From positions 1-64,000 of the forward strand of contig SLHA01000010.1 of NCBI GenBank assembly GCA_007136405.1: a DNA stretch of 64,000 nt. The letters run 5' to 3'. The notes under the pieces were generated by a model. It was given only the letters and a program-made list of their open reading frames with translations, was not told where the DNA came from and searched no databases. The position numbers were made by a program, and so were the translations under genes. How positions within the stretch are numbered: position 1 is the stretch's first letter; the number at the start of each line of letters is the position of its first letter. This stretch comes from Candidatus Latescibacterota bacterium (GTDB lineage Bacteria; Latescibacterota; UBA2968; UBA8231). This document shows positions 39,186-62,764 of the stretch, in pieces.

Positions 39186-39285
39186 AGCCGGCAGCCGTGT
39201 GACCACGGATCCATGCCGTCTTCACAGTGGTGCGGCGGTGCCGACGGGCGCTTGCCGGCTGCTGTCTTCCACTACCTCGGAGTGC

Positions 39286-43658: not shown

Positions 43659-44912
43659 CTACACCAGCGTTCCCCCGGCGTCAAAGGTCAGTTCCTGCGG
43701 ATCTTCCAACCGGGTCAGGTTCGGGTTGGTCGCTGCAGCTGCGTACAGGGGCTCCGAAAGCTGAATATGACCCAGTTCCAGGGTGTTCTTGATGCGGGCG
43801 ATGCGGGCCTGACGCGAATCTTCCAGGTGCAGTAGTCCGAGTGCCGCCTCCACCGCCTTCTGGTCCGTCTCCATGATCACCGGGATGTTGGCGCGGTTGA
43901 GGAAGGTGGTGGTGAACACGTTGGCGTAGGTTGCCTGGAAGTTGATGCGCTCGTAGAGCTTTCGGGTGATGATATCCGCCAGGCCGACGCCGTTGGCATT
44001 ACCGTGAGTCTTGTCGGTCAGATCCAGACAGATGATGCGCTGTACACCGGGTTCTTCCGGCTCCGGGACCCCCGGCAGCAGCATGCGCCCGATCACATTG
44101 GTGTCCATGCCGGTACCGGAGATGTCCTTGCCTATCCTTTCCACGATCAGCAAGTCTATGTCGCGGACCAGAAGACGGGCCATGGTATTCCGGGCTTCCT
44201 GCAGCAGCTCGGGTTCGCGCCATTCGAATTGGTCCGGGGTCAGCGCTTCTATGCGACCGAGCTGGTCATAGGCGTTCTCCAGCAGGGCCACACCCAGAAG
44301 CACCGGCGCCTGCTGCATGATGACACTGCCCCATGCTGGAATGAGACTGGCAAGGCCGTCTTTGTGCGAGTGGGCGATGGTGGCGCCCTTGTGGCTGCCC
44401 AGGCCGATGGTCATCATCTTCATCAACCCGCTTTCGAAGCGGCCGCGGAAGGACGTGTGCGGTTTGACGCGGTTGATGACGATGATGCCGTCGGATTCCA
44501 GCGCCAGGCGGTTGACCAGGACGGGTGTGCCATCATCCAGACTGCCCACCTGTCTGACGTCCATGGAGGCTTCCACGGGGCAACCCATGCTCTCCGGGGT
44601 GATATTGTAGCCGGCCAGGACCTGCTTCTGGCCGGCCGTCGTGGCCCCTCCGTGGCTGCCCATGGCTGGCAGGATGAAGGGTCTGCCGCCCGCCTGTAAT
44701 ACGGCATCGACCACGGTGCGCGTCACCTGAGTGATGTCCGCTATCCCGCGGCTGCCCGCGCACACGGCTATACGGGCACCGGGACGGACGCAGGCCGTGA
44801 TGCCCGCCTGTTCCAACTGGGCGCGTACGGCGGCCGGTACATCCTCTATGGTATGGGCCGGGAAGCGCTGACCCACGGTTACCATCCGAGGTAGCTGCAT
44901 GGCAGTCCCCAT
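43659..44912 (-). CDS. LarA/DUF2088-like (lactate racemase N-terminal domain-like) protein
   Basis: RPGARIAVCAGSRGIADI, PAMGSHGGATTAGQKQVLAGYNI, VNRVKPHTSFRGRFESGLMKMMTIGLGSHKGA. Confidence 0.7.
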   Translation of the reverse strand: MGTAMQLPRMVTVGQRFPAHTIEDVPAAVRAQLEQAGITACVRPGARIAVCAGSRGIADITQVTRTVVDAVLQAGGRPFILPAMGSHGGATTAGQKQVLAGYNITPESMGCPVEASMDVRQVGSLDDGTPVLVNRLALESDGIIVINRVKPHTSFRGRFESGLMKMMTIGLGSHKGATIAHSHKDGLASLIPAWGSVIMQQAPVLLGVALLENAYDQLGRIEALTPDQFEWREPELLQEARNTMARLLVRDIDLLIVERIGKDISGTGMDTNVIGRMLLPGVPEPEEPGVQRIICLDLTDKTHGNANGVGLADIITRKLYERINFQATYANVFTTTFLNRANIPVIMETDQKAVEAALGLLHLEDSRQARIARIKNTLELGHIQLSEPLYAAAATNPNLTRLEDPQELTFDAGGTLV

Positions 44913-45048: not shown

Positions 45049-46242
45049 TCAGGCTACGAAGATGGACCGGTTGGTGATACCGCAGGTGTGGCCCTGGCGC
45101 TGGAAACCGCCCATGAACTGGGCCGTGCGCGAACAAGGAGCCACGCCTTCATAGTAGGCATTGTAGGCGGTATTGAAGGGGCCGATACCCGCGCGCCCGG
45201 ATTCCGAGCCGTCGGCAGCCACGATATAGGCGTTGTTGAAGACGCCGTCTTCCTTGAGCCCCCGTCCTCCAGCCTCCTTGACGCGCGTGTCGATGGTCTG
45301 CAGCAGCGTGCCTGCGTCCGTGCCGCCCACGCCGCTGACCATGGCTTCACCGATGCCGTTGTACCGGAGCGCGGTCCAGGTGCTGAAGCCATCTTCCAGT
45401 TGTCCGGAACGAACGATCTCCACGTCTCCCGATACCACCCGGGGTTGCGGTTCCACGATGCCGTCCAGGTTGGGTATCCGCGAGACCGGATAGATCACGC
45501 CGGCGGGACGGTGTTCGCCGAAATAGGCTTCGAACACCTTGCGGACCGTTTCCATCCGTTCCCACGTCTGTTCAGGCGCGTCGTCCACGGCCACGAGGAT
45601 CTCCATCCACACGGTCTGCTTGCGGAAGTCCACTCCCTCGGCGGCGAACTTCCGGGCATATTGTTCTTCCAGAACGAACTCCATCTCTTTGGCCAGATCC
45701 GGTCCCAGCGTGGTGATCGTCTGGTCGCCCTGGCGGTGCATGACCGAGGCGCCGCTGGGTTGATGATCCGTCCAGGTGCCGTATTCGATTTTACCGCTGC
45801 CGATACTGGCCCCTTTGATGGCCTTGATCTGCACCTCGAAGAGGGCCTTGGGATCCGGATACCCCGCGGGATGCGTGAAACGCGCCATACGGTTGGACCG
45901 CAGCGGTCCACCCGTGCAGGCTTCGATCATGGGGCCGTATACACTGTTGAACGCGTTCTTGCGTTCATCGCAAGGTTCGCGGTCAGGAGAGGGTGTGGTC
46001 CACAGAACATCCGTCTTGTACACGTCCGACCAGCGAGCCTGTCCCAGCGCCAGAGACTGCTGGAGGTTCAGAATGGTGCCGAACCACTGAGAGCCGACAT
46101 CAGCGACGAACTGGGTGCCGACATTGCCGCTGGGTTCGATCAGGCGCGCGACGCTGCCATCCTTGCCGGCCAGAATGACCTCTGTGGTCTGACAGAAAAC
46201 CGCTCCTGGATTGTGGCGTACGATACTAACCTGTGTCATCAT
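45049..46242 (-). CDS. Uncharacterised 397-aa protein (weak Rid-family-like segment)
   Basis: Long ORF with coherent composition; FVADVGSQWFGTILNLQQSLALGQARWSDVYKTDVLW vaguely Rid-like; family not recognised. Confidence 0.55.
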   Translation of the reverse strand: MMTQVSIVRHNPGAVFCQTTEVILAGKDGSVARLIEPSGNVGTQFVADVGSQWFGTILNLQQSLALGQARWSDVYKTDVLWTTPSPDREPCDERKNAFNSVYGPMIEACTGGPLRSNRMARFTHPAGYPDPKALFEVQIKAIKGASIGSGKIEYGTWTDHQPSGASVMHRQGDQTITTLGPDLAKEMEFVLEEQYARKFAAEGVDFRKQTVWMEILVAVDDAPEQTWERMETVRKVFEAYFGEHRPAGVIYPVSRIPNLDGIVEPQPRVVSGDVEIVRSGQLEDGFSTWTALRYNGIGEAMVSGVGGTDAGTLLQTIDTRVKEAGGRGLKEDGVFNNAYIVAADGSESGRAGIGPFNTAYNAYYEGVAPCSRTAQFMGGFQRQGHTCGITNRSIFVA

Positions 46243-46371: not shown

Positions 46372-46920
46372 TCAAACGCCTCCACCCGCCCCGTGCCGGC
46401 GGTTGCGGAACAACTGCTCCCAGGCATCCACTTCCTCCGGTGCCAGCGTCAGCTCCGGGTCCAGTTCCGGCGGCGGCGCCGGAACCGTTGACTGTGAGCG
46501 CCGTGGGGCCTCCTCCAGTTCCTGGGCGAACTGCGGTGCGGTTGTGGAGGCAATTTTGTGCTGCCGGGCAAAGCGCCGAATCTCACGATCCGAGGTGATC
46601 ACCCGCAGATAGCGTGCCCCATGCCGGCCCTGAACGAAGCGCTTGATCAGGTCGTCCGCCGTCTCTGGAGCGCGAGCAAAACGGATGTATACCCTTTCGC
46701 TGCTGGCGTCCTGCGCTGGTTGAATGTCCCGCGTGCCGTCATAGAAGACGCTGACGCTGACCCCGGTACGCCGGACATAACGGCGCAGGGAACGCTCCAG
46801 GGCCCGGCGTGCCGCGAGCAGGCTGCTCTCCTCATGCTGCCGCAGCACCGGATCCGCCTTGATCAGGTTGTATCCGTCTATGAGCAGGTGCTCCTGATGC
46901 TCTTCAGCGCAGTTGCTCAC
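46372..46920 (-). CDS. NYN/PIN-like (YacP-type) nuclease-fold protein
   Basis: HLLIDGYNLIKADP, VFYDGTRD, ETADDLIKRFV, YLRVITSDREIRRFARQHK. Confidence 0.8.
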   Translation of the reverse strand: MSNCAEEHQEHLLIDGYNLIKADPVLRQHEESSLLAARRALERSLRRYVRRTGVSVSVFYDGTRDIQPAQDASSERVYIRFARAPETADDLIKRFVQGRHGARYLRVITSDREIRRFARQHKIASTTAPQFAQELEEAPRRSQSTVPAPPPELDPELTLAPEEVDAWEQLFRNRRHGAGGGV

Positions 46921-46931
46921 GGCGATCGGTC

Positions 46932-48785
46932 TCAGCAGGAAAGCTGGATGCCGTTGCTGTCCAGTTGGTACGCCACGACGCCGCTTTTGGCGAATGATGC
47001 TTTCTGGCGCAGCCGGCTGAGCCGCGCGCGCAGCTCCTCACCGCATCCGTCGCGGGCGATGAGCAGGGCGAACCCGCCGCCGCCGGCGCCGGTGATCAGG
47101 CCGCCTTCACTGACTTCCGTAAAATCCTCGCTTTCGAACAGCAGCTGCAGGCTGGGGGTGGTGGCATCCGGGTCCAGTATGCAACGTAACTGCCAGTACC
47201 GTGTGGCCAGCTTGCCGAGAGCGGCGTAGTCTCCCTCCTTCAGCGCCTGAACCATGCCGGAGTGGATGTCCATGGATTCGCGGATGGCGGGATAACGGGC
47301 CGGATCACGCGAGAGGTAGGCGTCCAGAACCACGTTGAGGCCGCGGGTGGCGGCGCGTGCGATGCCGGTGTCGAACAGCACCACCCGATCCGTGAAGGTG
47401 GCTTCGTTCACCGTGGTCAGGTAGTCCCGCTCCGGCGCGGGCAGACCGTCCGTTGGCGCCGCGTAAAAATCCTTGATGGCCGATGGACCTCCGCATGCAC
47501 CGCGGGCATCCTGCCAGCCGCTGTTCAACCCGATGCTCTGCTCCAGCAGCAGGCTCTGGTCATACAGCTCCGGGTATTCCCGCTCCGCAGTGGAATACGG
47601 ATGCCGGTACAGCCGGTACAGCGCCTTGAGGATGACTGCGGCCAGAATGCTGCTGGTTCCCAGGCCGGACCCCTGCTGCACCTTGCTTTCCGTGGCGATC
47701 TCCAGCCCGCCCCCACCGGTGAACGCGGCGATGTCGCGAACCACGTCCGCCGAGTTGTCGCGCACGATACCGGTGTGCACCAATGCCTGTTTGATCAGGC
47801 GCAGAGCCTCGTCTCCGCCGCGGCGGTAGGCGAAGAACAACTCGCTCTGGGTGCCGGCATCGCCGCGATTGGTGGCTTCGAAGTCCGCCTTGAAGTCCAT
47901 GGACAGGGAGCGGAGCAGCAGCTTGGGCTCCGCGAGCCGCCGTGCCGTCAGGCGCAGCGGTGGCACGGCGCAGCTCTCGCCCTGCATCTGCAGGTCTATA
48001 CCCGCGTTCAGCGTATGCGCTCCCTGCTCCTTACTGCGCAGGTGGTTGTCCGACGCATTGGCACTGGAGATGCCCAGGCGCAGCGGGGCCTGAACGACGA
48101 AGTGTCTGCCGTAGTCCTCTTCATGCATCTGCGGTGTGGTGGACGGCGCCCCGCTCAGGTCCGCCAGGTTGCGGCGCAGATCGATGCGCTGCAGCTGGTT
48201 GATGCGGGCCTCGTAGGCGGCGGCCAGGGCCTCGATGTTCTTCTGTTCCTTGAGTGCGGTGATACGGTCTCCGTCGATGCAGCACGGTGGCGGCGTGCGT
48301 CTCTTCCAGACACTGGGCGTCTGGGCCAGGGTGGTGTAGATATCCTGCATGATCCGGGCGACGCGCATGCCGCGCAGACGGCGCGGTGAGCCTGTCAAAC
48401 CTTCCAGATAGGTGTTCAGAGCCTTGAGGACGGCAAAGAGCGTCTTGGGGGCATGGTCAGGGAGATACCGCAGCAGCTGGGTGTGGCTGACGTCGGTCAG
48501 ACCGTCTACCAGGTCCACCATGAGCTGTGGCAGCTCCTTCCCTACGGCGCTGCCCATGAGCTTGGCCCAGGCATCTGCCCCCAGGCGCTGAAACAGATGG
48601 TCCAGCGCTTCCGGCGTACGTTGGGAGGCGATGAGCGTCGGTTGAAAGGCCAGGCTGCGCAGGAAGCTCCGCCTTTGGTCCATCTGGCTCTGGCCCGCCC
48701 GGACCCGATCCATGAAGCTGTCGATGAGGTGGGTTATTTCCGGCAGCTCTTCAGCGCGGTCGAGTCTGTCGAGGAGTTCTCTCAT
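46932..48785 (-). CDS. GHMP kinase superfamily protein, L-fucokinase-like, with ~200-aa N-terminal extension
   Basis: APLRLGISSANASDNH, VQQGSGLGTSSILAAVILKAL (motif 2), GLNSGWQDARGACGGPSAIK, LITGAGGGGFALLI (motif 3); ORF stays open to 48857, start uncertain. Confidence 0.8.
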   Translation of the reverse strand: MRELLDRLDRAEELPEITHLIDSFMDRVRAGQSQMDQRRSFLRSLAFQPTLIASQRTPEALDHLFQRLGADAWAKLMGSAVGKELPQLMVDLVDGLTDVSHTQLLRYLPDHAPKTLFAVLKALNTYLEGLTGSPRRLRGMRVARIMQDIYTTLAQTPSVWKRRTPPPCCIDGDRITALKEQKNIEALAAAYEARINQLQRIDLRRNLADLSGAPSTTPQMHEEDYGRHFVVQAPLRLGISSANASDNHLRSKEQGAHTLNAGIDLQMQGESCAVPPLRLTARRLAEPKLLLRSLSMDFKADFEATNRGDAGTQSELFFAYRRGGDEALRLIKQALVHTGIVRDNSADVVRDIAAFTGGGGLEIATESKVQQGSGLGTSSILAAVILKALYRLYRHPYSTAEREYPELYDQSLLLEQSIGLNSGWQDARGACGGPSAIKDFYAAPTDGLPAPERDYLTTVNEATFTDRVVLFDTGIARAATRGLNVVLDAYLSRDPARYPAIRESMDIHSGMVQALKEGDYAALGKLATRYWQLRCILDPDATTPSLQLLFESEDFTEVSEGGLITGAGGGGFALLIARDGCGEELRARLSRLRQKASFAKSGVVAYQLDSNGIQLSC

Positions 48786-48909
48786 GGGGAGCTTTCTCAC
48801 CGTTGGCGGGGACGGGACCTGCCTGCCTGGCCCGCCCGTCTGTTGCATTGGCGTCAAGTTCCCACTTGAGCCGCTTGTACAGGTCTGGACGGTCTGAGGC
48901 GAAGCCTCG

Positions 48910-49047
48910 CTAGGAAATAGCGCCGCAGCCTTTGAAAATAGCCTCGATCTGCTCGACGGACAAGAGAGCCGGCTCCGGAGGCCGATGCCGACTGGGGTAT
49001 GACCACGGCCAGGTCGGGGTTCCGGTATCCCGGCGCACTAGGAGCAT
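48910..49047 (-). CDS. Putative 45-codon small ORF overlapping the end of the ATP-grasp-like gene
   Basis: ATG overlaps upstream stop by 10 nt (ATGCTCCTAG; alternative GTG in TAGTG); MLLVRRDTGTPTWPWSYPSRHRPPEPALLSVEQIEAIFKGCGAIS. Confidence 0.35.
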   Translation of the reverse strand: MLLVRRDTGTPTWPWSYPSRHRPPEPALLSVEQIEAIFKGCGAIS

Positions 49048-50573
49048 CCCGGCGCGGAGACGGATCCGGCCAGGCGGGACAGTGTCCTCCACAGAGGGGC
49101 GCCGATTCCTGCGGTGTCCTCGTTCAGCAGATTGGCATGGAGCAGTCCGGCGGGACGCGGGTTGACGTCCAGAACGCTGCAGCAAGGCCCCTGGCCCTCC
49201 TGGTCGAACTTGAGATCCACCCCTGCCAGCGTTAGGGGGCCGATGGCGCTGACGGCGCGTTCGGCCATCCTGGCTGCCTGAGCGAGCTGTGCTGGTGACC
49301 AGGGCAGCGGCGGGGCGCCAGGATCGAGCAGATCGTGCAGATAGCGGCCTTGCAGCCAGCGGGTGGGCGCCGCCTGCCCTCCGGCTTCTACCGAGGTGAC
49401 CGGATTGTCCCTGGAGGCCGCCAGCAGCAGACAGGCACTGGTGGCGCGGTGCGCCTGGCCGTCCAGACACACGTTGATGCGAAGATCCCAGGCGAGCGGG
49501 CCATCATCGCCGGCGAGACCCAGCAGGCCGACCCGGGGGCGCAGGATGGCGTCTCCGCTTTCGGCCAGGTGGCGCCAGGCTGTCAGCAGGGCCGGCACGC
49601 AGTCTTCGTCGGCCGCGATCCAGGTGACGCCGCGGCCTTCGGTGCCATGACGCGGTTGCACGAACCAGCCGCCCGGAGCGGGGCTGGTACGCTCCAGGAG
49701 CAGGCGCGACTGGGTCTCCATGGCCGCCGCCGGCGTGGCGGCAGGCAGCAACTCGGTTACCGGCGTGCGAACGTCCTGATCGCGCCAGCGTTGCCAGCAT
49801 GTCCACTTGTCGTCCGCCAGGGCAGACAGCCTCGCCGGATTCACGTACGGTATTCCGGCGGCGTCGAGGCGGCTCCCCAGTTCGGCGTGGTCTGGGGGCG
49901 CATGGGCGATGACCAGGGCTGCCTGGGGTCGGCGGGGTTCGGGCAGGGTGCCTTCGATAAAGACATCGAGGCCGGCATCGTAGTGGATGGCTTGCAGGAT
50001 GCGGCCCCGGCCGTCCAGCCAGGAGCCATGGATGCCCAGCAGTTCCGGCGCGGCCTGCTGGCGCACTTCCAGCCCGTAGACATAGGCATCCGTACAGAGT
50101 GGATACAGCTCGTGGGTAATGGCCAGCGGCTGGTCGAAACATACGGCCACCCACAGCGCGCTGGCCGCGGCGGGAAGGGGTTGCGGCTGGTCCGGCGGAG
50201 CGGTGAGCAGGGGGGGCGCCGCGGCGTTGATGAGGAGACGCTCGAGAGCCAGGAGCACGACCCGCTCGAGGTATTCTGGCGCAGCGAAGCCGGCAGACAC
50301 CCGGTCCGCCGGCAGACAGCCGGCCGCCTGCAGGTTCCGCAACGTGCCGGGCAGCTCGCTTCGGGCCGCGGTCCCGGCATGACGCAGCAGGGTCTCCAGG
50401 GCCGCGGCCCGGTGATCGCCGCGTGTCTGCCGGACGGCCTCCACTACGGCAGGGGCGGCCGTGCCTACACGGTCGGCCACCGCAGCGGCCAGGTACTGAC
50501 TTACCGCGGCCGGCGCGTACCGTGTGCGACGGCCCAGTTCGGCGCGAACCCGCTCCAGCAGTTCGATGCGCAT
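49038..50573 (-). CDS. ATP-grasp-fold protein of unknown function
   Basis: GGWFVQPRHGTEGRGVTWI, LAWDLRINVCLDGQAHRATSACLL, LTLAGVDLKFD...SVLDVNPRPAGLLHANLL; start taken at MRIELLERV (ORF extends to 50621). Confidence 0.7.
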   Translation of the reverse strand: MRIELLERVRAELGRRTRYAPAAVSQYLAAAVADRVGTAAPAVVEAVRQTRGDHRAAALETLLRHAGTAARSELPGTLRNLQAAGCLPADRVSAGFAAPEYLERVVLLALERLLINAAAPPLLTAPPDQPQPLPAAASALWVAVCFDQPLAITHELYPLCTDAYVYGLEVRQQAAPELLGIHGSWLDGRGRILQAIHYDAGLDVFIEGTLPEPRRPQAALVIAHAPPDHAELGSRLDAAGIPYVNPARLSALADDKWTCWQRWRDQDVRTPVTELLPAATPAAAMETQSRLLLERTSPAPGGWFVQPRHGTEGRGVTWIAADEDCVPALLTAWRHLAESGDAILRPRVGLLGLAGDDGPLAWDLRINVCLDGQAHRATSACLLLAASRDNPVTSVEAGGQAAPTRWLQGRYLHDLLDPGAPPLPWSPAQLAQAARMAERAVSAIGPLTLAGVDLKFDQEGQGPCCSVLDVNPRPAGLLHANLLNEDTAGIGAPLWRTLSRLAGSVSAPGCS

Positions 50574-50638
50574 GACAGGCAGGTCAAGCCGCTTGCCAGG
50601 GACACCACCGGCCTCTGGCAAGCGGCCAACGGGACGTC

Positions 50639-53600
50639 TCAGGCACGCACGGCCTGCAGGTACTGCTCGCCGGCGATGACGAAGTTACGCAATACGACGC
50701 GGTCGCTCTGACCCACCCGGTCGTGGTCGAAGGCACGGCCCTGTTGCTGGCTGGCCAGTTGTTCGAGGGCCTCCTCGCGCAGATTGAACCGATCCCACAG
50801 ACCGATGCCGACATTGGGCTCCAGGTGGATGAATTCCCAACCCGTGATGTCTGCCGGAGCCCGGCCGTGCTCATCTTGCAGGATGGGCACGGACCCGATG
50901 CGCCGGCCCGCTTCGTCGTAGATCGGTTCGATATCCACCAGGCGGCCCGGCCGCGAGAACACGGGACTGGCCAGATAATCCAGCATCAGGTACGGTGCCC
51001 AGGCGTACGACACCCCGCGGGCATCGGTGCCGATATCACGCCCCCGTTGCTGGCGGAACTGTTCCTCGTACTGGGCCGCAAAGGCGGTCATCGCCTGCAT
51101 CACCTTCGGTACTTCGGCTTCCAGACCCGGCCGGATCTGGTCCCGGTACTGTTCCTGCACGAATTCGTCCAGGAGTTTCTCCAGAGTACCGCCGCGACCG
51201 ACGTTGGTCGCCACCTGCAGGCTGGTGAGGGTGATGGGGAAGGCCGCGTCGTACGGCTGGTCCGGATGCGCCGACGACGCCACGATGCGCAGCGAGCCAT
51301 AGATCTGCGACCGCGGCAGCCGGTCCCGCTGCACCGGTGTGTTCCATTCCAGCACCTGGCGCTCGACGAAGCGTTCCATGAACTCCGGTGTGGTCCAGAA
51401 TTCCGGTGACGTGAGCACCGCCGTCTGGATCACCACGTTCTGCCGGCGGGCGACGTCATAAAGAAAGTCCACGGCGGCGCTCACCGCTTCCGGATCGACG
51501 CGGCCGGCCTCGTCCTGCAGGTCGAACACCTTGAGGTTGCGTGCTCCCGATTCCGCGGCTCCCTTGATCAGGACGATCGGATGCTCCGCGCCAAAGGCCT
51601 CCAGACCGCGGAAATCCTCGTTCGGCACGCCTGTGGTCATCAGTTCCCTGATTTCGGCCGGGGACTTGCCGGCGCCGTACTCCCGGCGCCAGTCCATTTC
51701 CGGCGGCAGGCAAACGCCGAATTCCGGGCGGAAGATGCTTGGATACAGCGACTTGTCGTACGTGATGTCGGAAAATACGAGCGACTGGACCGTGGCCGGG
51801 AGCCCCAGGTCCTCGGTCTGTCCGGACTCGTATATCGGCAATCCGTGGAACGGGATCAGGGCGCCCACCGGGATGGGACGGGTGAAACGGGCCGCAATAC
51901 GGATGCCCTTGGGCGAGAGTGCACCGCGTTCACTGGCCGCGTCGGCCTCCGCTGCCGCCGCGGTCTGGTCCAGGCCACGATGCTGTTGCAGGGCGGCGAT
52001 GTACGTGTCGCGGCTGATATAGAAGTGCGCGTCCTCGATGACCAGGAGGTCGCGCTCGGCGCCCTCCACCTGCGTGGCGTATCCGTGCCGGGTAATCAGC
52101 AGGTTGGCGCCCCGGTGGCCATCCTGACGCACGGCCTGGTCGAGCGTGGGGCCTTCACGCAGCGCCCGCGACACGTGGGTTCGGCCTACCGGATACAGGA
52201 AGACGACATTGACCCGTTTGTCCGCTTCGATCAGGTCCGGATCGAAGTCATGGAAGACCGGCGGTGTGGCGAAACCGTCGCTGTGCATGAACGACAACTC
52301 GCGCAGCTGGTTGTAGGCACGCCAGCGTTTCTCGTCCAGCGATTCGCCGCCGGCACCGATTCCGGGGGTCACGGCATCCTGGTCGATGCGGCCGAGCAGG
52401 GCGTCCACATCCTTTTCCGGCAGGGACCCGAGCTCGGTGCATCGCACGATGACGGTGCGGATGTACCGGTACAGCCAGTCGTGGTGCTGATTGGCCAGAG
52501 CGTATATCTCCGCCTCCGTGAGGTTGTCGAAGGCTGTGCCCCGGTCGAAGATCCACGGTCTGTATTCGTACCAGTGGTCGTTGATGGTCTCGGCGAAGAA
52601 ATCCGTGAGATTCTTGTAGAACAGGCGTTCGTCGATCTCCTCGGGATCCTCCAGGGCGAACTGCAACGTCTGCGCCAGCGCGAAGGTGACGTAGAACAGC
52701 TCCATGCCGCGGGTCGCGGCCTCCAGCTGATCCGGTGCCGCGGCCGCTTTCTCGGCCAGGCGCGCCAGCACGCCGATGTCCTCGTAGCCGCCGGCCAGCA
52801 CCTTCCAGTCCTCGAGAATGATCTCGCGACCGGTATACACCTGAGCCACGCTTTCCCGGAAGGCTGTCAGAGCGTCGCCGTCGTAGTGTTCGGTGCCAAG
52901 AGCCTCCAGCGTCCGGCGGGTGCAGCCGATCAACTGGCCGAAGAGATGATTGATGCTGGTCCGGTCTTCCGTTGCCGTGGCGGCCGTGGCGTCGAATTGA
53001 CGGATCTGCTCCAGCAGGTCCTCCATGTGCTGCGACGCCTGGTCCAGGCACGGCGCCGCGGAAGCCGAGGCGAATGCCTTCATGGCCTCCTGGAAACCCG
53101 CCTCGCGATCCGACATGGCCCGGGCCTTCTCCGCCCGCACACGCAGGGCGCGGCGCCGTTCCAGCGCTTCCACGGCCGCGACTTCCACGGCCTTGCTGGA
53201 ACTCTCGACCAGCTTCTGCTGGGTGAAACGGGCCGAATCAGGTTCGTAGGCCGGGCGCACCAGGGCGTCCAGAATCTGCTCGTTCTCTGCCGGGCTGAAG
53301 GCGGCTACATCCGCTTCCGGTGCGGTGGCGGCTGCGGCGATACGTTGCACGCCGGCGGCAAAGCGTTCGAGCAGGGCATCGATGCGCTGACGCGTCTCAC
53401 CGAGAAGCACGAAGACGCCTCCCAGGCCGGCGATCCAGGCTCCGGCATCCAGGCGTGACAACGGCAGTCCCGCGGCGATCCTCACCCGGGCCTGGCTGAC
53501 GAAGGCATCCCGCTGGCGCCATTTCTTGAAGCGACGCAGCTTCTGTTCCTGCCGCAGGGCCTTGCCCGCCTCGTCGTCGTCGGTGAGCTGGCGCTGGATC

Positions 53601-56600
53601 TCGGCATAGGTCGTCTGCGCCGCGGCGATGGCCTTGTTCTGATCCCGCGATCCGGCTTCAGCTACGGCGATAACCGCGTCCAGTATGCGCTGGCCGCGGT
53701 TGCGCCAGACCTGCATCTCCTCCTCCAGGCGAGTGACGATGTGTTCGCCCAGACCGATGCCGGTGTACGTGCCCCGGCGGCCGATCTTCTCGCAGGCGGC
53801 GAAGAAGGCCTGGACGTCGAAGTCCGTCAGGGCCCGGGGTTCGCGCCCGGCGCAGCCATCGGCGATGGCCAGCGCACTGTTGGGATTTCCCTGCCGCATC
53901 AGGGTGACCAGTTTGGGCATGTCCTGCAGCAGCTCGAGTAACTGCGGGAAGGGAATACCCGTATTGAGCACATCGATGCCCTGCACATCCGTTTCGTAGT
54001 CCCGTCCGGGACCGCGCAACTTGAGCACCAGGGCATGGATACCGCCGCCGACGCGCTCGACGAGTTCCTCGATCCGGGACTCGGGCAAGGGCGCAATGCC
54101 GGCCCAGCGGCGCAAGTCTCCGCCATGGACCTCGGCGTTGGCGCGAATCTGGTCCTCCGTCAGGCCGTAATCACCCAGTTGCACCTGGACCTGGGTGGCG
54201 ATCTCGTCAAGACGGGAGTCGCTGGTGTAGAACAGCATGTCGTTGGTGGAGGACAGCGTCACGGAGGTCATGACCACGTCCGCCGGCGGCGCGTGTCCGG
54301 GGAAGGCCTGGCGCAGCCGGGCGACCGCTTCCGTGTCCGTGTCCGCCAGGTTGTAGGTCTGCAAGACCTGGCGGGCGGCGCGGTGTCCGATGGTGGAATC
54401 GCTGTCCGGATTGAATCCCTCGAGCATGAGGTGTACCAGGTTCTGCCCTTCTTCGTCGAAGGCGTAGTGCAGGTGTTCGCCGGTCTTGGCGAAGATCTCG
54501 AACAAGCGCATGCCCGTCGAGAAGCGGATGTCCTGCACCGGCTTGTATTCGGCGGACAGGGCGATCCGGGCCTGATGGTCCTGGGGACAGGCGGGATGCT
54601 TGTCGCGGGCCTGGCGCAGGCATTCGTAGATGGACCAGGCCTTGTAGAAGACCATGAAACGGTTCACCTGCTCGGCGTTGATGACCATTTTCTCCACGCT
54701 CCAGTCCGCTGCCAGATTGGCGATCAGGCGGGGACCAGATGCGGTTTCGTGCCAGGGACGCCCCAGATGCTCCAGGGCCCGGGCGATCTTGGTGATGTGG
54801 AAGACCAGCAGCTCACCCCGCAGACCGATGTACTCTTCGAGAACCTCGTACCGGAGCAGTTTGTCCGCGGCCCAGTGCTGCCAGTCGAATTCCGTGTTGA
54901 ACTCCTGCTTGCGCGCCAGGGCTTGCTTGGCCAGCTGCATGATGCCGTGGTGCAGGTGGTCCGGAACGCCCATCTGCCTGAGCTTGACATCATTGGTGAG
55001 CGACAGCACAAAGGCCAGGAAGAGCCCGTCCTTGGGGACGCAGTAACCGCCGTATCCCTCACCGGCGGGAGGGACATAGCGGTCCCCGCGCAGGTTCATC
55101 TGGTCTCCCATGTCCTGGGCATCGCCCTCCAGGACCGCGTTGCACAACAGGCCGAGCGCGTTGGAGCCGGCGAAGTGCGTGACGGCCAGGCCGTTCTCCG
55201 AGGTCTTCTGGATTTCCGCATAAGCCAGGGCGGGACGTTCTTCGACGCCGCCCTCGTTGACCAGGCTGTAGAATTCGAACCCGGCCTGGGCGGAGGCGGC
55301 GTCGGCGCCGCCGACCCACTGACGCCACTTGACCACAGAATCCCGCTCGCGGTGGCCCAGATTGACCCGGCTGGGGGTATACAGCAGGTTGTACCGCTTG
55401 TTGCCGCCGGTGGCCTGGTAGTAATAATGGGGATCGCTGCATTCGGCGTTGAGCTGGTGGCGTGCCACCACCGCCTTGCGGGCCGTGGAGGTCAGCGTCT
55501 GCGAATACATGCGCAGGAAGGCCCGCTCACGAGCCTCCATGTCCAGGTGCGGTTTTTCGGCGGACAGTTCCCGGAAGACCAGGCGGCGCGCCTGACTGCG
55601 CATGATGCTGGCCATCTCATCGCGGTAGTCCGGCTCGCTTTCGGCCACGACCCGGCGGGCTTGCTCCACGTCCAGCCCCTGACGGCTGTCCATCACCTCC
55701 TCCACCCGCTGCTCGAAGGCACGCCCGTTGTTTTCCGCCACCAGCGGCACGGCAGCGGTCATCAATTCGTCCCGGTGGTCGTCCAGGTATTGCTCGACGC
55801 GGCGGGGGTCGCGTGCCGGGGCCGTGTCCAGGGTGGCCTCCGGGTCTTCGGCGCATTCCAGCAGCGTACCGAGCAGCGCCACCTGTTCGGCGACGGGGCG
55901 GTAACTGCCGATGACGATGCTTACGGCCACCGGCGCCGGCACTTTCTGCTCGGCCATGACCTCCTCGACGACCACGTCCATGCCCAGATCCGCGATCACC
56001 TTGCGGCCAATCTCGTACATGCGCTGCCGGTAACGGCCGATCTCCTCGTCCACCTCCTGGTCCAGCCCACGGGCCCGGATGACGTTGAACAAGGCCATCT
56101 CCTCTTCGATCCAGGACTGCACATAGCCTTCCGTCATGCCGGCGGATTCGGTGGTGAGGATGTGCAGCGACGAAACAGGGCGGGTGCGCTGCAAGGCGAC
56201 AGGCTCGTACCGGGCCGCGGCCCGTGCGAGGGCCTGCGGTTGATCATCGAAGACTTTCTCCAGCGCGGTGGTGATGCGGGTTCGACCGCTGGCCGCCTCC
56301 AGCACCTGTCCCACCAGGTTGTCCGGAGCATCCCGGTGCGTCTCGCACAGCACCCGGCGCAGCGCCACGCGCCGCGGCACCGACTCCTGTTCGACCAGGC
56401 GGTGGATGGCTTCGATCAACGCGTCCTCGCTGGCTTCGATCAGCGCCGCCAGGTGGCTGATCTCCGGATGCTGGCGCGGCATGTCCTGCAGGACCAGGCG
56501 TGCGGCCTCGTCCGGTGTGACCGTCGGGTCCTCGGCGCAGATGTCGTCCACGGCGCGGGCGAGCCGGCGGTCCGATTCGGTGATCAGGATCCTGGCCAGT

Positions 56601-58510
56601 CCGACGCGCTCGGAGGCCATGACCTCGTCCAGATTCTGAGCCCAGAACGGAGCGTGCAGCCGGAAGAACGCTTCCATGGCTTCCTGATCGACTTCGGTCT
56701 GTATCTGATCTACCTGAGTGAGCTGGCCGCCGACTTCCACTTCCCGGCGGATGAGTCGCTCCTTGATGAACAGAGGGATGGCCTCCACCCAGTCGTTGAC
56801 CTTGATCACCCAGTGCGTGTCGGTTTCGCGGCCGTTTACCTCGATCCGGCCGGCACCGGGGGTGTTGTAGATATAGTCCCCGCCCTGGCGCAGCAGGTCG
56901 CGCAGATCCTCCTCCTTGCCGGTGTGCACTTCGCGGAAGGCATTGGCATTGGCCAGGTTGATGGTTTCGCTGGGATGCAGCCGCTGCAGCTGGAGCACAT
57001 ATGCCGCCGGAGACTTGTCACAGGATTCGAGTTCGCGGCGACAACGGGCGGACAGATCGAAGAGTTTGTCGATCGCCTGGCCGGCATTCTGCATGCGTTC
57101 CCGCGCCATGTCGATGGCGCCGCGCGACAGGAGACGACGGGAGGCGTTGTCCGCTTCGTCGAGGATTTTCTGCGCTGATTCCGACTGGTGTCCGACCAGG
57201 CATTCGTCAAAGGCGTTGAGCGCGCCGACCAGGCGGGCGTACGGCGTGCGTTTCTGCTGCTGCACGAGATGCAGCAGGCTGGTGGCTGCGGCGTGCAGAT
57301 CCGTGTTGTGGCGACTGGCGCGTTCGATCTGGCGGGCTACACGCGCCAGCCGGCTCTTGTCGTCGACGAATTTGGCGGTGGACAGCAGATTGGCCTGGTT
57401 GCCGAAGGCCCTGGACAGGCGCCCGGAGACCAGGCGGATGTCGTTTTCGTATGCCCAGCCGGAGATGCGTTGGATGTTCCTGCCTTCAGCCCGGTAATCG
57501 AAATGGCGCGAGATGGTAGCGTTGACCTCAGCGCGCCATTCGTCCAGATCCTCGGCTTCGCTGTTCAGCAGACGGCCGACCTCGTCCTGGGGGTAGGGGG
57601 CGTCGATGCGATCCTGCATGCGTATCCAGGTGACCCATTTGTCGCGCCATTTCAGCGTGTTCTCCACCTGCTCGAAGACGCGGTTCGCATAGGCCAACGG
57701 CGATTCACCCGAACGGGGCGCCGTCAGGCTGGAGGCCTCCGGAGCGACCTCGCGTATTTTCTCACTGACGCCCCGTCGCAACGAGGTACCGGTGTCCGCA
57801 TAGCGCATCTGGTCTATGGCCAGACCGGCCTGGAACAGCGTTTCCGTGGAGATCGCCGCCAGCTCCGTGATGCCCACTCCGTCCTGCGTCTCGGCCAGCC
57901 GGGCGTCGTAGCGGTTGGTCACGGCCATGCCGAGGATGTTGCCGCAATCCACCGGGGCGGTGCGCAGGAACTGCTGCAACTGCTCGCGCTGCAGACTGGT
58001 GAGCAGTGCATACATGTCGAAGACGCGATGGATGGCGGCGCGCTGGGTGACCTTGGGATTGAGCATGGAGAGGGTGCCCAGCAGGACCATGCCGGCAAAA
58101 TGCGCCGAGGCCTCGGCCGGATCCTGCGGCGCCCAGGTGGCGTCCAGCTGCAATACCGGGCTGGCGCCCTTGCGGGGTGCCGGGTAGAGGCGAGCGACGC
58201 GATCGTTGCTTTCCACAAAATTCACGCGGATGCTGCCGCGGTGCGACGTGGCGTCACGCAGGACCGCCGTCAGCAACGGGTGGGTGGAGCTGGCTTCGGT
58301 GAAGGCCTGGTATCCTGTCGCGAACACGGCCGCCGTGGCCTGTACCGCGTCATTGGCTCGGCGCGGCAGTTCGAAGCGGCAGTGCTTGCGCGTCAGTTTG
58401 AGCTTGCCCTCGGCGAGCGTCTTGCCGGGCTGACGCAACGCTATCTGGGAGTTCTCTCCCCCGGCGTCCAGGTCCGGCATATGGATGGGAAGGCAGTGAT
58501 GATCCGCCAT
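50639..58510 (-). CDS. Giant (~2,623 aa) uncharacterised protein with an ATP-grasp-like C-terminal segment
   Basis: Single uninterrupted frame; start MADHHCLPIHMPD preceded by GAGGTAA RBS; C-terminal HPIVLIKGAAESGARNLKVFD...FMERFVERQVLEWNTP...YGSLRIVASSA...TNVGRGGTLEKLLDEFV is ATP-grasp-like. Confidence 0.85.
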   Translation of the reverse strand: MADHHCLPIHMPDLDAGGENSQIALRQPGKTLAEGKLKLTRKHCRFELPRRANDAVQATAAVFATGYQAFTEASSTHPLLTAVLRDATSHRGSIRVNFVESNDRVARLYPAPRKGASPVLQLDATWAPQDPAEASAHFAGMVLLGTLSMLNPKVTQRAAIHRVFDMYALLTSLQREQLQQFLRTAPVDCGNILGMAVTNRYDARLAETQDGVGITELAAISTETLFQAGLAIDQMRYADTGTSLRRGVSEKIREVAPEASSLTAPRSGESPLAYANRVFEQVENTLKWRDKWVTWIRMQDRIDAPYPQDEVGRLLNSEAEDLDEWRAEVNATISRHFDYRAEGRNIQRISGWAYENDIRLVSGRLSRAFGNQANLLSTAKFVDDKSRLARVARQIERASRHNTDLHAAATSLLHLVQQQKRTPYARLVGALNAFDECLVGHQSESAQKILDEADNASRRLLSRGAIDMARERMQNAGQAIDKLFDLSARCRRELESCDKSPAAYVLQLQRLHPSETINLANANAFREVHTGKEEDLRDLLRQGGDYIYNTPGAGRIEVNGRETDTHWVIKVNDWVEAIPLFIKERLIRREVEVGGQLTQVDQIQTEVDQEAMEAFFRLHAPFWAQNLDEVMASERVGLARILITESDRRLARAVDDICAEDPTVTPDEAARLVLQDMPRQHPEISHLAALIEASEDALIEAIHRLVEQESVPRRVALRRVLCETHRDAPDNLVGQVLEAASGRTRITTALEKVFDDQPQALARAAARYEPVALQRTRPVSSLHILTTESAGMTEGYVQSWIEEEMALFNVIRARGLDQEVDEEIGRYRQRMYEIGRKVIADLGMDVVVEEVMAEQKVPAPVAVSIVIGSYRPVAEQVALLGTLLECAEDPEATLDTAPARDPRRVEQYLDDHRDELMTAAVPLVAENNGRAFEQRVEEVMDSRQGLDVEQARRVVAESEPDYRDEMASIMRSQARRLVFRELSAEKPHLDMEARERAFLRMYSQTLTSTARKAVVARHQLNAECSDPHYYYQATGGNKRYNLLYTPSRVNLGHRERDSVVKWRQWVGGADAASAQAGFEFYSLVNEGGVEERPALAYAEIQKTSENGLAVTHFAGSNALGLLCNAVLEGDAQDMGDQMNLRGDRYVPPAGEGYGGYCVPKDGLFLAFVLSLTNDVKLRQMGVPDHLHHGIMQLAKQALARKQEFNTEFDWQHWAADKLLRYEVLEEYIGLRGELLVFHITKIARALEHLGRPWHETASGPRLIANLAADWSVEKMVINAEQVNRFMVFYKAWSIYECLRQARDKHPACPQDHQARIALSAEYKPVQDIRFSTGMRLFEIFAKTGEHLHYAFDEEGQNLVHLMLEGFNPDSDSTIGHRAARQVLQTYNLADTDTEAVARLRQAFPGHAPPADVVMTSVTLSSTNDMLFYTSDSRLDEIATQVQVQLGDYGLTEDQIRANAEVHGGDLRRWAGIAPLPESRIEELVERVGGGIHALVLKLRGPGRDYETDVQGIDVLNTGIPFPQLLELLQDMPKLVTLMRQGNPNSALAIADGCAGREPRALTDFDVQAFFAACEKIGRRGTYTGIGLGEHIVTRLEEEMQVWRNRGQRILDAVIAVAEAGSRDQNKAIAAAQTTYAEIQRQLTDDDEAGKALRQEQKLRRFKKWRQRDAFVSQARVRIAAGLPLSRLDAGAWIAGLGGVFVLLGETRQRIDALLERFAAGVQRIAAAATAPEADVAAFSPAENEQILDALVRPAYEPDSARFTQQKLVESSSKAVEVAAVEALERRRALRVRAEKARAMSDREAGFQEAMKAFASASAAPCLDQASQHMEDLLEQIRQFDATAATATEDRTSINHLFGQLIGCTRRTLEALGTEHYDGDALTAFRESVAQVYTGREIILEDWKVLAGGYEDIGVLARLAEKAAAAPDQLEAATRGMELFYVTFALAQTLQFALEDPEEIDERLFYKNLTDFFAETINDHWYEYRPWIFDRGTAFDNLTEAEIYALANQHHDWLYRYIRTVIVRCTELGSLPEKDVDALLGRIDQDAVTPGIGAGGESLDEKRWRAYNQLRELSFMHSDGFATPPVFHDFDPDLIEADKRVNVVFLYPVGRTHVSRALREGPTLDQAVRQDGHRGANLLITRHGYATQVEGAERDLLVIEDAHFYISRDTYIAALQQHRGLDQTAAAAEADAASERGALSPKGIRIAARFTRPIPVGALIPFHGLPIYESGQTEDLGLPATVQSLVFSDITYDKSLYPSIFRPEFGVCLPPEMDWRREYGAGKSPAEIRELMTTGVPNEDFRGLEAFGAEHPIVLIKGAAESGARNLKVFDLQDEAGRVDPEAVSAAVDFLYDVARRQNVVIQTAVLTSPEFWTTPEFMERFVERQVLEWNTPVQRDRLPRSQIYGSLRIVASSAHPDQPYDAAFPITLTSLQVATNVGRGGTLEKLLDEFVQEQYRDQIRPGLEAEVPKVMQAMTAFAAQYEEQFRQQRGRDIGTDARGVSYAWAPYLMLDYLASPVFSRPGRLVDIEPIYDEAGRRIGSVPILQDEHGRAPADITGWEFIHLEPNVGIGLWDRFNLREEALEQLASQQQGRAFDHDRVGQSDRVVLRNFVIAGEQYLQAVRA

Positions 58511-58803: not shown

Positions 58804-59628
58804 TCACCGGAACGACTTGCGCCAGGTGCGGCCGCCGGAACGCCGGTAGTCGGACGGGGCGATGCCTACTTGTTCCTTGAACAGAGTACTGAAATGGCTG
58901 AAGGACTGGTAACCCACGCTCAGGCTGATCTGGGTGATCGACAGCGTGCTTTCCAGCAGCAGCTTCTTGCTGTAGTCCAGGCGCATCCCGGTAAGGACCT
59001 GGTTCAGCGTCTGGTGCCGTACCTGACGAAACAGCCGGGCCAGATGCGCCGGTGACAGGTTGACCACCCGGGCCAGCCCGGCGCGTGTGAGTGGCTGGCT
59101 CAGGTTGTTGCGCATGTAACTCTCCACCCGCTCGACGATCTCGCGCTGGTAGGCGGCATTGACCGAGGGCGGGCCGAGCGTGCCGGCGGGGGCCGCCGGG
59201 ATGGCTGCGCGCCGCAGGCCGATGAGGATCCTGGTGAGCAGGATGCCAATCAGGTCGTCGGCGTTGCTGTCAGCAGGAAGCCGGATCTCGGAAACCAGGG
59301 CGTGCAGATCCGGCTGCAACTCCAGGGGCGTAGGCATCACCCGGTCGATCAGGGCGTCGAGGTCCAGCCGGGTGGCGCTGAAATGGGCCCACAGATAACC
59401 CGGGGCCCGGTCCACCGAGCGCGGAGAACGGAGGGTTCCGGGCGGAATGAGGATGGACTCGTGGGATTTGAGCAGGTGCTGCTGCGGACCGACGATCATC
59501 TCCACCGCGCCGTACAGCACGCAGTACCATTGGTAGATCTCATGCCGGTGCGCACCGTAATGGTAGCGCGTTCCTTTCTCACGGTAGCCGACACGCTGGA
59601 GCTGAATGGGCAGGTCCGAATGAGGCAT
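58804..59628 (-). CDS. AraC-family transcriptional regulator with N-terminal cupin-like domain
   Basis: RYHYGAHRHEIYQWYCVLYG...ESILIPPGTLRSPRSV; HTH LTRAGLARVVNLSPAHLARLFRQ, ITQISLSVGYQSFSHFSTLFKEQVGIAPSDYRR. Confidence 0.93.
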   Translation of the reverse strand: MPHSDLPIQLQRVGYREKGTRYHYGAHRHEIYQWYCVLYGAVEMIVGPQQHLLKSHESILIPPGTLRSPRSVDRAPGYLWAHFSATRLDLDALIDRVMPTPLELQPDLHALVSEIRLPADSNADDLIGILLTRILIGLRRAAIPAAPAGTLGPPSVNAAYQREIVERVESYMRNNLSQPLTRAGLARVVNLSPAHLARLFRQVRHQTLNQVLTGMRLDYSKKLLLESTLSITQISLSVGYQSFSHFSTLFKEQVGIAPSDYRRSGGRTWRKSFR

Positions 59629-60046: not shown

Positions 60047-61465
60047 TCAGGGCTGGTCCACTGCCTGGGGTACGCCGTCACCGTTGGTGCCGTTGACTTC
60101 CTTGAACGCGTCCATGGCACCGTACTCGTGCAGCTTGTTGCGCAGGGTACGCGTGCTTATACCCAGTATGCCCGCGGCTTCCGTGCGATTGCCGCCACAA
60201 CTCTCGAGCGTTTTCATGATGAGCCGCTGTTCCATTTCATGGACGGTCAGGCCCACGCGAATACCGTTATCAGCCCGGGTTTCCGGCCCGGCGGTCAGCT
60301 TGCGCGGCAGGTCATCGGCGTCCAGCATGTCGCCCTGCGCCACCACCACGGCGCGTTCGATGTAGTTTTCCAGTTCCCGGATATTTCCAGGCCAGTCGTA
60401 GCGCATCAGGATGTCGAAGGCGGCATCGGTGATGCCCTGGATTTTCTTGCCGTTTTCCTTGTTGTAGCGCTCGATGAAGTGACTGATCAGGGTGGCGATA
60501 TCCTCCTTGCGTTCGCGCAGCGGCGGCAGCTCCACTTCGATGACATTGAGGCGGTAGTAAAGGTCTTCACGGAAGTTGCCCTCCAGGACCTCCTTCTCCA
60601 GATCCCTGTTGGTGGTGGCGATGATGCGCACATCCACCTTGATGGTCTGATTACTGCCGACCCGCTCGAATTCCCGTTCCTGCAGTACGCGCAGCAACTT
60701 CGCCTGCAGGGAGGCGTCGATCTCGCTGATTTCGTCCAGCAGCAACGTCCCGCCATCCGCCATCTCGAAGCGTCCACGGGTTTGTTTGATCGCTCCGGTG
60801 AAGGCTCCTTTCTCATGGCCGAACAGCTCGCTCTCCATCAGTTCGCGGGGCAGCGCGGCGCAGTTGATGCGGATGAACGGTCCGTTACCGCGTGGACTGT
60901 TGTAATGCAGCGCGCGGGCAGCCAGCTCCTTGCCGGTACCGCTCTCTCCGGTCACCAGTACCGTGGCGCGGCTGCTGGCCACGGTGTCGAGAAGGTCGAA
61001 AATTCGATCCATGCAACGGGCCTTGCCCAGCATGTTCGCATATCCGTAGCGTTCCTTCAACTCGGAGCGCAGGCGACGGTTTTCGCGCTGGGCCTCCTGA
61101 TACATCAAAGCGCGCTCGACCACCAGTTCGATTTCGGCCGGATCGGTGGAGCCTTTCTGGATGTAGTCGTAAGCTCCTTTCTTCATGGCCTGCACGGCAT
61201 CCTCGATGGTGCCATAGGCGGTCATGAGGATGATGTGCGTATCCGGCGCCTTGGCGCGCGCTGCTTCGAGCAGTTCCAGACCGGTCATGCCGGGCATGCG
61301 GATATCGGAGAGGATCAGATCGTATTCCGTTTCGTCCAGCCGGGCCAGCGCGGTTCTGGCTTCCGGTGCGGTGTCTACCTCGTAGCCTCTGAGCTTGAGG
61401 ATCTCCTCAGTGGCCTCGCGCACGTAGGCGTCATCGTCGACTACGAGAATGCGTTTGTTGGGCAT
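60047..61465 (-). CDS. NtrC-family sigma-54-dependent response regulator
   Basis: Receiver DLILSDIRMPGMTG; AAA+ VTGESGTGKELAARALHYNSPR, SELFGHEKGAFTGAIKQTRGRFEMADGGTLLLDEI; Fis-type HTH NRTEAAGILGISTRTLRNKLHEY. Confidence 0.96.
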   Translation of the reverse strand: MPNKRILVVDDDAYVREATEEILKLRGYEVDTAPEARTALARLDETEYDLILSDIRMPGMTGLELLEAARAKAPDTHIILMTAYGTIEDAVQAMKKGAYDYIQKGSTDPAEIELVVERALMYQEAQRENRRLRSELKERYGYANMLGKARCMDRIFDLLDTVASSRATVLVTGESGTGKELAARALHYNSPRGNGPFIRINCAALPRELMESELFGHEKGAFTGAIKQTRGRFEMADGGTLLLDEISEIDASLQAKLLRVLQEREFERVGSNQTIKVDVRIIATTNRDLEKEVLEGNFREDLYYRLNVIEVELPPLRERKEDIATLISHFIERYNKENGKKIQGITDAAFDILMRYDWPGNIRELENYIERAVVVAQGDMLDADDLPRKLTAGPETRADNGIRVGLTVHEMEQRLIMKTLESCGGNRTEAAGILGISTRTLRNKLHEYGAMDAFKEVNGTNGDGVPQAVDQP

Positions 61466-61504
61466 TGTCCGTGTCCCTCACTCTGCCGGGTGACGGGGGT
61501 GCGC

Positions 61505-62764
61505 TCAGGCGGGGATGTTGACGTGGAAACACGTCCCGGCACCCGCTGAACTCGTCACGCTGATACTGCCGTTGTGGGCTTCCACGATCTTGCGACTGGT
61601 GACCAGACCCAGGCCGGTACCATCTTCCTTGGTGGTGAAAAAGGGGGTAAACAGCTTGTCCAGAATCTCCGACGACATGCCCGGCCCGGTGTCGTCTACG
61701 CTGAGCACGACCCCTTTCGCATCCCCGGCAGGACCTACGCGCACTGTTATGTCACCGCCTTCCGGCATGGCCTGCTGCGCGTTCTGCAGCAGGTTGAGGA
61801 TGACCTGCTGAAACTGCTCCGGATCGATGCGACACTGCAGGTCCGGGTAATGGTAGACGCGGTGGACGGTCACATTGCGGTGGTTGCGTGCCAGTTCGAT
61901 TTCGAAGAAGGCCGTGGCTTCTTCCACCAGTTCCACGAGGTTCACCTGATGGGCGTGCAGACGCAGTGGGCGGGTATAGGTCAGCAGGCTGGTGACGATA
62001 CGGTTCAGGCGACCTACGCCTTCGGTGATTTTGGCGACCAGGCGACGGCGCGGATCGTCGTGGCCCAGATCCCGGCCGAGCAGGTTGGCAAAGGTGGCAA
62101 TGCCGCCCAGCGGATTGCGAATTTCGTGGGCCACGGTAGCCGCCATCTCGCCCAGCGCCGCCAGCGTATGGGCACGCTGGATCTCCGCCTCCAGGCGCTT
62201 GATTTCGGTCATGTCGTTGAAGACCTCGACGGCGCCCAGAACGCTGCCGTTTTCATCTCGAACCAGCGACGTGCTGAAGCCGACGGGGATGCTGTGACCG
62301 TCGGCGTGTACGAGCTCCTTCTCCCGGTGGCTCAGGCTCAGGCCGGTTTCCAGGGTGTGCAGCACGGAATGCCGGCTGCCATACTCCAGACCCAGGGCCT
62401 GCTCATACGTTTTTCCCAACACCTCGGCCTCGGATCTGCCGGTGATGCCCTGCGCGGCCTGGTTGAACAAGGTGATCACGCCATCGGCATCGACGACCAG
62501 TACTCCGCCGGTCAGGCTTTCCAGGATGTTGTTCAGATAATTACTGACCCGATCCTTTTCCTCGAGACTGCGCCGCAGTTCCAGGTTCGTCTCTTCGAGC
62601 TTGACGTTGAGCGACTCGAACTGCGCTTCCAGCTGCTCGTACGCTTCACGGTAGCGGCGCGTGGTCTCCTTGAACAGCGTGTAGGAATCCGTGAAGTCCT
62701 GCAACCCGGCATGGGTGGCGCCCAGATTGAGGTGGTGCCCGGTCATCGTTTGTTCTTCGATCAT
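61505..62764 (-). CDS. PAS-domain sensor histidine kinase (soluble, NtrB/FleS-like)
   Basis: PAS segment LESLTGGVLVVDADGVITLFNQAAQGITG; H box GEMAATVAHEIRNPLGGIATFANLL; N/G boxes QVILNLLQNAQQAMPEGG, VDDTGPGM, FFTTKEDGTGLGL; no TM seen. Confidence 0.94.
   Translation of the reverse strand: MIEEQTMTGHHLNLGATHAGLQDFTDSYTLFKETTRRYREAYEQLEAQFESLNVKLEETNLELRRSLEEKDRVSNYLNNILESLTGGVLVVDADGVITLFNQAAQGITGRSEAEVLGKTYEQALGLEYGSRHSVLHTLETGLSLSHREKELVHADGHSIPVGFSTSLVRDENGSVLGAVEVFNDMTEIKRLEAEIQRAHTLAALGEMAATVAHEIRNPLGGIATFANLLGRDLGHDDPRRRLVAKITEGVGRLNRIVTSLLTYTRPLRLHAHQVNLVELVEEATAFFEIELARNHRNVTVHRVYHYPDLQCRIDPEQFQQVILNLLQNAQQAMPEGGDITVRVGPAGDAKGVVLSVDDTGPGMSSEILDKLFTPFFTTKEDGTGLGLVTSRKIVEAHNGSISVTSSAGAGTCFHVNIPA

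Follow-up and report, generated by a model that had tools for sequence, protein, structure and literature searches.

The nucleotide-sugar dehydrogenases of the UDP-glucose/GDP-mannose dehydrogenase superfamily are characterized by an N-terminal NAD-binding domain, a central catalytic domain and a C-terminal NDP-binding domain. The residues of human UGDH considered below are Cys276, Lys220, Asn224, Asp280 and Arg260 (PMC3184952). The ATP-grasp proteins of the D-Ala-D-Ala ligase (Ddl), RimK and LysX type form a second well-described group, and the GHMP kinases, which include the bifunctional fucokinase / GDP-fucose pyrophosphorylase and HddA, form a third. Here we describe a giant protein of 2,623 aa (P0001), encoded at 50639..58510 on the minus strand of a 64,000-nucleotide stretch of DNA (contig SLHA01000010.1), hereafter called the window, which resembles the first two groups in part and is associated with the third. 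The giant shares with the dehydrogenases the central domain, a motif of the GxGxGGxCxPKD type and the set of Cys, Lys, Asn, Asp and Arg residues; unlike them, it has no detectable N-terminal NAD domain, carries a Ser in place of the Glu of the PEF/PER motif, and has the central domain embedded in a chain of 2,600 aa. With the ATP-grasp proteins it shares the predicted fold of its C-terminus, two candidate ATP lysines and the D / E-x-N metal residues, but its module is invisible to Pfam and bears the unusual motifs VGRTHxSR, TNVGRGG and EPNxGxGLWDR; the partner protein encoded next to it is related to the same type by profile match. The bifunctional fucokinase / GDP-fucose pyrophosphorylase and HddA are relatives of the kinase encoded downstream, and in one locus (L064) a GHMP kinase and the giant share one continuous reading frame, whereas the giant of the window itself contains no GHMP domain. 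The giant family, of which no description was found in a literature search of incomplete coverage, is distributed over several phyla and appears to reuse the active site of a textbook dehydrogenase, seemingly with the NAD domain missing, coupled to ATP-grasp.

The giant gene and the distribution of its family

The frame of the giant is unbroken from 58510 to its stop at 50639, and a Shine-Dalgarno-like sequence, AGGTAA, lies close upstream of its ATG, as had been reported in an initial annotation of this DNA, which described an uninterrupted 7.9-kb frame with a good ribosome binding site. The family is conserved over almost the entire chain, and the closest relative is 62% identical from residue 6-7 through to the end. 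Two further observations of that annotation were confirmed as well: by the simple Kyte-Doolittle measure the giant has no signal peptide or transmembrane segment, because no 19-aa window exceeds 1.39 and the N-terminus is hydrophilic, and a BLASTP comparison of the protein with itself revealed no internal repeats, TRF reporting only 1.9 copies of 21 bp in the gene. A 2,745-column alignment of 12 full-length members, which are 36-62% identical to the window protein, contains several hundred invariant residues; since hundreds of columns are invariant across phyla, the ORF is a real gene rather than a chance one. It is present in a single copy in its host genome, a Latescibacterota-like MAG. No family in Pfam or NCBIfam spans the giant, and in keeping with its earlier description as uncharacterized, no characterized family matches it over its full length, known domains covering only about a quarter of it.

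Within the phylum of the window, the giant is present in 20 of 64 genomes, a count from which genome G062 was left out, where the match is short and the frame 444 aa long. One genome-wide scan recovered 44 loci of the family, the carriers being Latescibacterota-like and Omnitrophota-labelled MAGs, Armatimonadota, one Acidobacteria MAG, one Myxococcales MAG and Methylococcaceae, the last with three named isolates, i.e. Methylovulum miyakonense, Methyloglobulus morosus and Methylotetracoccus oryzae. As these methanotrophs are cultivable, the function of the giant can be tested now. The occurrence of the family is sporadic in one methanotroph family, with long matches in 5 of 151 genomes (three further matches, short and in frames of ~450 aa, are probably ordinary dehydrogenases and were not counted), and common in the small Omnitrophota-labelled phylum of genome G065, where 10 of the 14 species possess it. 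A quick tree places the window giant with an Omnitrophota-type clade (SH-aLRT 99). The majority of the window's own family falls into another clade, to which all the methanotrophs belong as well. The ATP-grasp partner of the window, like the window giant, is closest to Omnitrophota copies. The neighbourhood, on the other hand, is that of the window's own family, with two-component genes, a GHMP kinase, a 397-aa protein, a LarA-like gene and sigma-54. The simplest reading of these relationships would be that the pair of giant and partner was replaced in place in the window genome; ancient paralogy may alternatively account for the tree placement.

The family also includes a divergent subfamily (L016, L017, L018 and L026) of ~2,350-2,490 aa, whose sequences are close to 30% identical to the giant of the window. 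In the small Omnitrophota-labelled phylum, three genomes have a second, weaker-scoring copy (G228:C128, G226:C1015 and G227:C728), and the giant gene of one relative (L005/L039, G017:C173) contains an in-frame TAG. Two other attributions were considered for the giant and rejected: a defence system, as no PADLOC model matches the giant or its partner; and plasmid or phage cargo, as tblastn found no match in a plasmid or phage collection and viral models returned nothing at E <0.001, the only recognizable match being to a phage Ugd at E 0.37.

Domain architecture of the giant

The N-terminal region (aa 1-289; 57644..58510, minus strand) is the most variable part of the alignment, and the window's subfamily alone has an insertion of ~50-80 aa there. 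The rest of the chain was modelled with AlphaFold as two overlapping pieces, aa 290-1485 and aa 1440-2623, with a mean pLDDT of 86.6 and 89.6, respectively. According to the alignment, AlphaFold and Foldseek, the region aa 290-1036 (55403..57643, minus strand) is alpha-rich with one beta-rich patch (~aa 499-607) and has no known fold; its conserved blocks include EAIPLFIKE, LTTxSAxMTxGY and TARK. The region aa 1440-2084 (52259..54193, minus strand) is mainly helical and confidently modelled, again without a significant known fold, Foldseek giving generic solenoid matches only, and a Pfam scan of the C-terminal half in 43 members gave nothing credible. Altogether, ~1,900 aa of the giant, mostly helical, have no match to known domains. 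The initial annotation could not assign most of the protein, which still holds, but it had overlooked the UDP-glucose/GDP-mannose dehydrogenase central (catalytic) domain at ~1037-1169.

This domain (aa 1037-1169; 55004..55402, minus strand) is the only one that Pfam and NCBIfam detect in the giant, with an E of 3e-6, above the cut-off, for PF00984. TIGR03026 scores 41.7 bits over profile positions 144-276 of 413 only, and the giant thus falls short of full-length membership, for which the NCBIfam cut-off is 189.8. The profile of the giant family matches solved dehydrogenases in the PDB (E 1.8e-9), and when compared by hhalign with the true dehydrogenases found in related genomes, it reaches a probability of 97% over 148 columns, essentially all of them in the central domain. 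Furthermore, the model of aa 290-1485 retrieves nucleotide-sugar dehydrogenases in Foldseek, with a best E of 0.002 and prob 1.00; the Foldseek values are thus not below 0.001, a level that the sequence profiles do reach. The domain contains the dehydrogenase-like motif GEGYGGYCVPKD, and its conserved residues Cys1157, Lys1102, Asn1106, Asp1161 and Arg1141 correspond, as judged from the motif, the spacing and the hhalign comparison, to the five human UGDH residues in the order given above. Cys1157 is found in 44 of 44 rows, Lys1102 and Asn1106 in 45 of 45 each, and the column of Asp1161 holds 40 D and 4 E. Farther downstream, aa 1318-1345 (54476..54559, minus strand) resemble the beginning of the C-terminal NDP-binding domain of the dehydrogenases, as indicated by a weak second profile domain, residue counts and the motif AEYKPxxxDxRxS, in which Lys1323, Asp1327 and Arg1329 are invariant.

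Other hallmarks of the dehydrogenases are missing. Whereas 11 true dehydrogenases all have the PE of the PE(F/R) motif, the giant has Ser1047 at the position of its Glu (human Glu161), and Ser occupies this position in 45 of 45 rows with a letter. As for the NAD-binding Rossmann domain (GxGYVG), the region upstream of the dehydrogenase-like domain consists of helices in the AlphaFold model, hhalign reaches the central domain only, and a hidden NAD-binding motif elsewhere in the chain was rejected, no Gly-rich motif being conserved there in the family. As a nucleotide-sugar dehydrogenase, the giant therefore fails in three respects, namely the full-length cut-off, the NAD domain and the Glu. 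Because the NAD-binding domain and the conserved Glu appear to have been lost, the giant is probably not an ordinary dehydrogenase, and the remaining site may be non-catalytic. The orphan domain is the first clue to the substrate class of the giant.

At the other end of the chain, the C-terminus is, by predicted fold and by residues, an ATP-grasp module of the D-Ala-D-Ala ligase type (aa ~2085-2623; 50642..52258, minus strand), in agreement with the ATP-grasp-like pattern that had been noticed there. In a Foldseek search of the PDB with the model of aa 1440-2623, each of the top 30 matches is a D-Ala-D-Ala ligase (best E 7e-6, prob 1.00); the boundary of the module was placed from motif order and secondary structure, the Foldseek rows carrying no query coordinates. 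The candidate ATP lysines Lys2253 and Lys2316 and the candidate metal residues Asp2511, Glu2564 and Asn2566, whose roles were assigned from motif order rather than superposition, are invariant where present. None of the Pfam ATP-grasp models recognizes the module in any of the 43 members. A profile comparison of the C-terminus of the giant with the partner gave no significant sign of homology, since hhalign places the two in register at the ATP-grasp motifs but with a P of 0.029 and a probability of 1.7%. Ligase chemistry is favoured over kinase chemistry by fold similarity only; an Asp1 kinase is found among the weaker Foldseek matches of the C-terminal model (E 0.016). The earlier reading of a large cytoplasmic multi-domain enzyme or scaffold is hence borne out in the multi-domain build, the lack of export signals and the C-terminal ATP-grasp, but the orphan sugar-nucleotide dehydrogenase domain was absent from it.

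The ATP-grasp partner, the neighbouring genes and the fusions

The partner, a stand-alone ATP-grasp protein of 527 aa (49038..50621, minus strand), is encoded 17 bp downstream of the giant. It has profile matches to LysX, RimK and Ddl (3vpd, E 1.6e-7; 1uc8, E 8e-7; several Ddl), and its candidate ATP/metal residues, Lys, Asp and Glu/Asp-x-Asn, are intact. Across the 64 genomes of the phylum, 19 contain both genes, one the giant only, one the partner only and 43 neither (Fisher p 4e-14, with the relatedness of the genomes ignored); the two single-gene exceptions belong to one genus, and their genomes are incomplete (60% and 78%). The partner was also found in all six distant carriers tested, including G065, in which it lies on another contig. 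The partner is thus a near-obligate companion of the giant.

The GHMP sugar kinase (641 aa; 46932..48857, minus strand), whose kinase domain is fucokinase/heptose-kinase-like and lies in the C-terminal half, is linked to the pair in a looser way. It is encoded downstream in the window's family, yet it is retained in genomes without the giant (g7), and is therefore not a dedicated partner. Several methanotrophs have a different GHMP kinase after the pair, and others have GalU, above the NCBIfam cut-off. It had been asked whether ATP-grasp and GHMP genes always accompany the giant; the former does so almost perfectly, whereas the latter is recurrent but not obligate. The giant had also been placed at the head of a minus-strand block. 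It does head the tight run of giant, ATP-grasp, GHMP kinase and NYN genes, the last (46372-46920, minus strand) encoding a YacP-like NYN domain protein 11 bp past the GHMP kinase, but genes on the same strand precede it: an AraC-family regulator directly upstream (58804..59628) and an AtoC/AtoS-like response regulator and histidine kinase (60047..62764). The AtoC/AtoS-like genes precede the giant in many relatives too. A sigma-54 promoter before the giant was rejected despite the AtoC-like regulator, as none is found nearby and the matches in the window are at chance level.

In two Omnitrophota MAGs, much of this gene set is fused. The 5,707-aa single frame of L064 (959-18079) comprises the giant, ATP-grasp, an SIS/PGI-like region, a GHMP kinase and an NagB-like domain, and the 5,344-aa single frame of L063 (5300-21331) comprises an aldose epimerase, the giant, ATP-grasp and the first part of a GHMP kinase, the remainder of which lies in the next frame. 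As the order in the fusions is that of the operon, there is good evidence that giant, ATP-grasp and GHMP kinase work jointly, and the fusions would show a pathway in the process of merging into one chain. A region of ~700 aa is common to L063 and L064 and is differently placed in each. The other neighbours of the giant vary, and include transporters, glycosyltransferases and an LD-carboxypeptidase.

Possible function, and further genes of the window

We tentatively propose that the giant is a multi-domain enzyme that serves sugar or nucleotide-sugar metabolism in the cytosol: the dehydrogenase-derived module would bind a sugar and the ATP-grasp modules would perform an ATP-dependent step; its cytosolic location, substrate class, reaction type and order of steps are what we infer from the features described above. 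The pocket of the dehydrogenase-derived module, which retains the UDP-glucose-dehydrogenase catalytic residues, would most likely accommodate an activated (NDP-) or acidic sugar, and the giant's C-terminal ATP-grasp together with the partner would act on that sugar. The ATP-dependent step would be an acyl-phosphate-type ligation joining a carboxylate with an amine or hydroxyl, phosphorylation being less likely, and the GHMP kinase and/or GalU would supply or use the activated sugar. Counted against this reading are the ~1,900 aa without assignment, which could dictate another function, the variation of the neighbours, and the GHMP kinase, which is not dedicated.

The loss of the Glu in every row, together with the absence of a conserved NAD-binding Gly-rich motif elsewhere in the family, is also what a scaffold or metabolon might exhibit, an explanation that we consider possible but somewhat doubtful. 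The dehydrogenase-like module would then be a pseudo-enzyme for binding or assembly, the large helical regions would keep sugar enzymes together, and only the ATP-grasp modules would be catalytic, possibly as sugar/polyol kinases (cf. Vip1/Asp1-type); the Omnitrophota fusions with several sugar enzymes and the weaker match to the Asp1 kinase are consistent with such a role. However, a pure scaffold would not be expected to keep the former active-site residues Cys, Lys, Asn, Asp and Arg so strictly, and the best fold matches are ligases rather than kinases.

Two adjacent ATP-grasp ligase-like proteins could alternatively serve natural-product or surface-glycan biosynthesis, coupling a sugar acid, which the products of adjacent genes would make or provide, with amino acids or peptides. 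The sporadic spread across phyla, seen in the tree and in the one methanotroph family, would suit this role, as would the presence of glycosyltransferases and LD-carboxypeptidase close to the giant of L058/L066. We nevertheless regard it as unlikely, since conserved genes for a precursor peptide, NRPS or export were not seen alongside the giant, and the presence of the family in most species of G065's phylum is more like core metabolism.

A bolder version of the proposed sugar enzyme, which we think distinctly unlikely, is that an NAD-independent descendant of a nucleotide-sugar dehydrogenase site and two ATP-grasp modules constitute a new class of ATP-driven sugar ligase megaenzymes. The conserved Cys may in that case carry the sugar acyl as a thioester, to be passed to an amine or hydroxyl, and some Omnitrophota would have fused much of the pathway, sugar kinase included, into proteins of 5,300-5,700 aa. 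Finally, a catabolic module that activates imported hexuronates or aldonates for breakdown is improbable, for although L036 has an MFS transporter, D-galactonate family-related, 7 bp downstream of the partner, L047 has a solute:sodium symporter nearby, and the fusions contain aldose epimerase, SIS/PGI-like and NagB-like parts, each of these transporters was seen once, and GalU and the dehydrogenase-like site indicate nucleotide sugars instead.

Beyond the run headed by the giant, the window encodes several other proteins. Beside the GHMP kinase block lies the gene of the 397-aa protein (45049-46242, minus strand), which is 64-69% identical in related genomes and has no Pfam or NCBIfam match, followed by that of a nickel-pincer cofactor-dependent isomerase, group 22 (LarA superfamily; 43659-44912, minus strand), above the NCBIfam cut-off. 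On the plus strand, a 644-aa chain (39199-41133) with weak LptC-like and LptA/OstA-like parts adjoins an ABC ATPase and RpoN.
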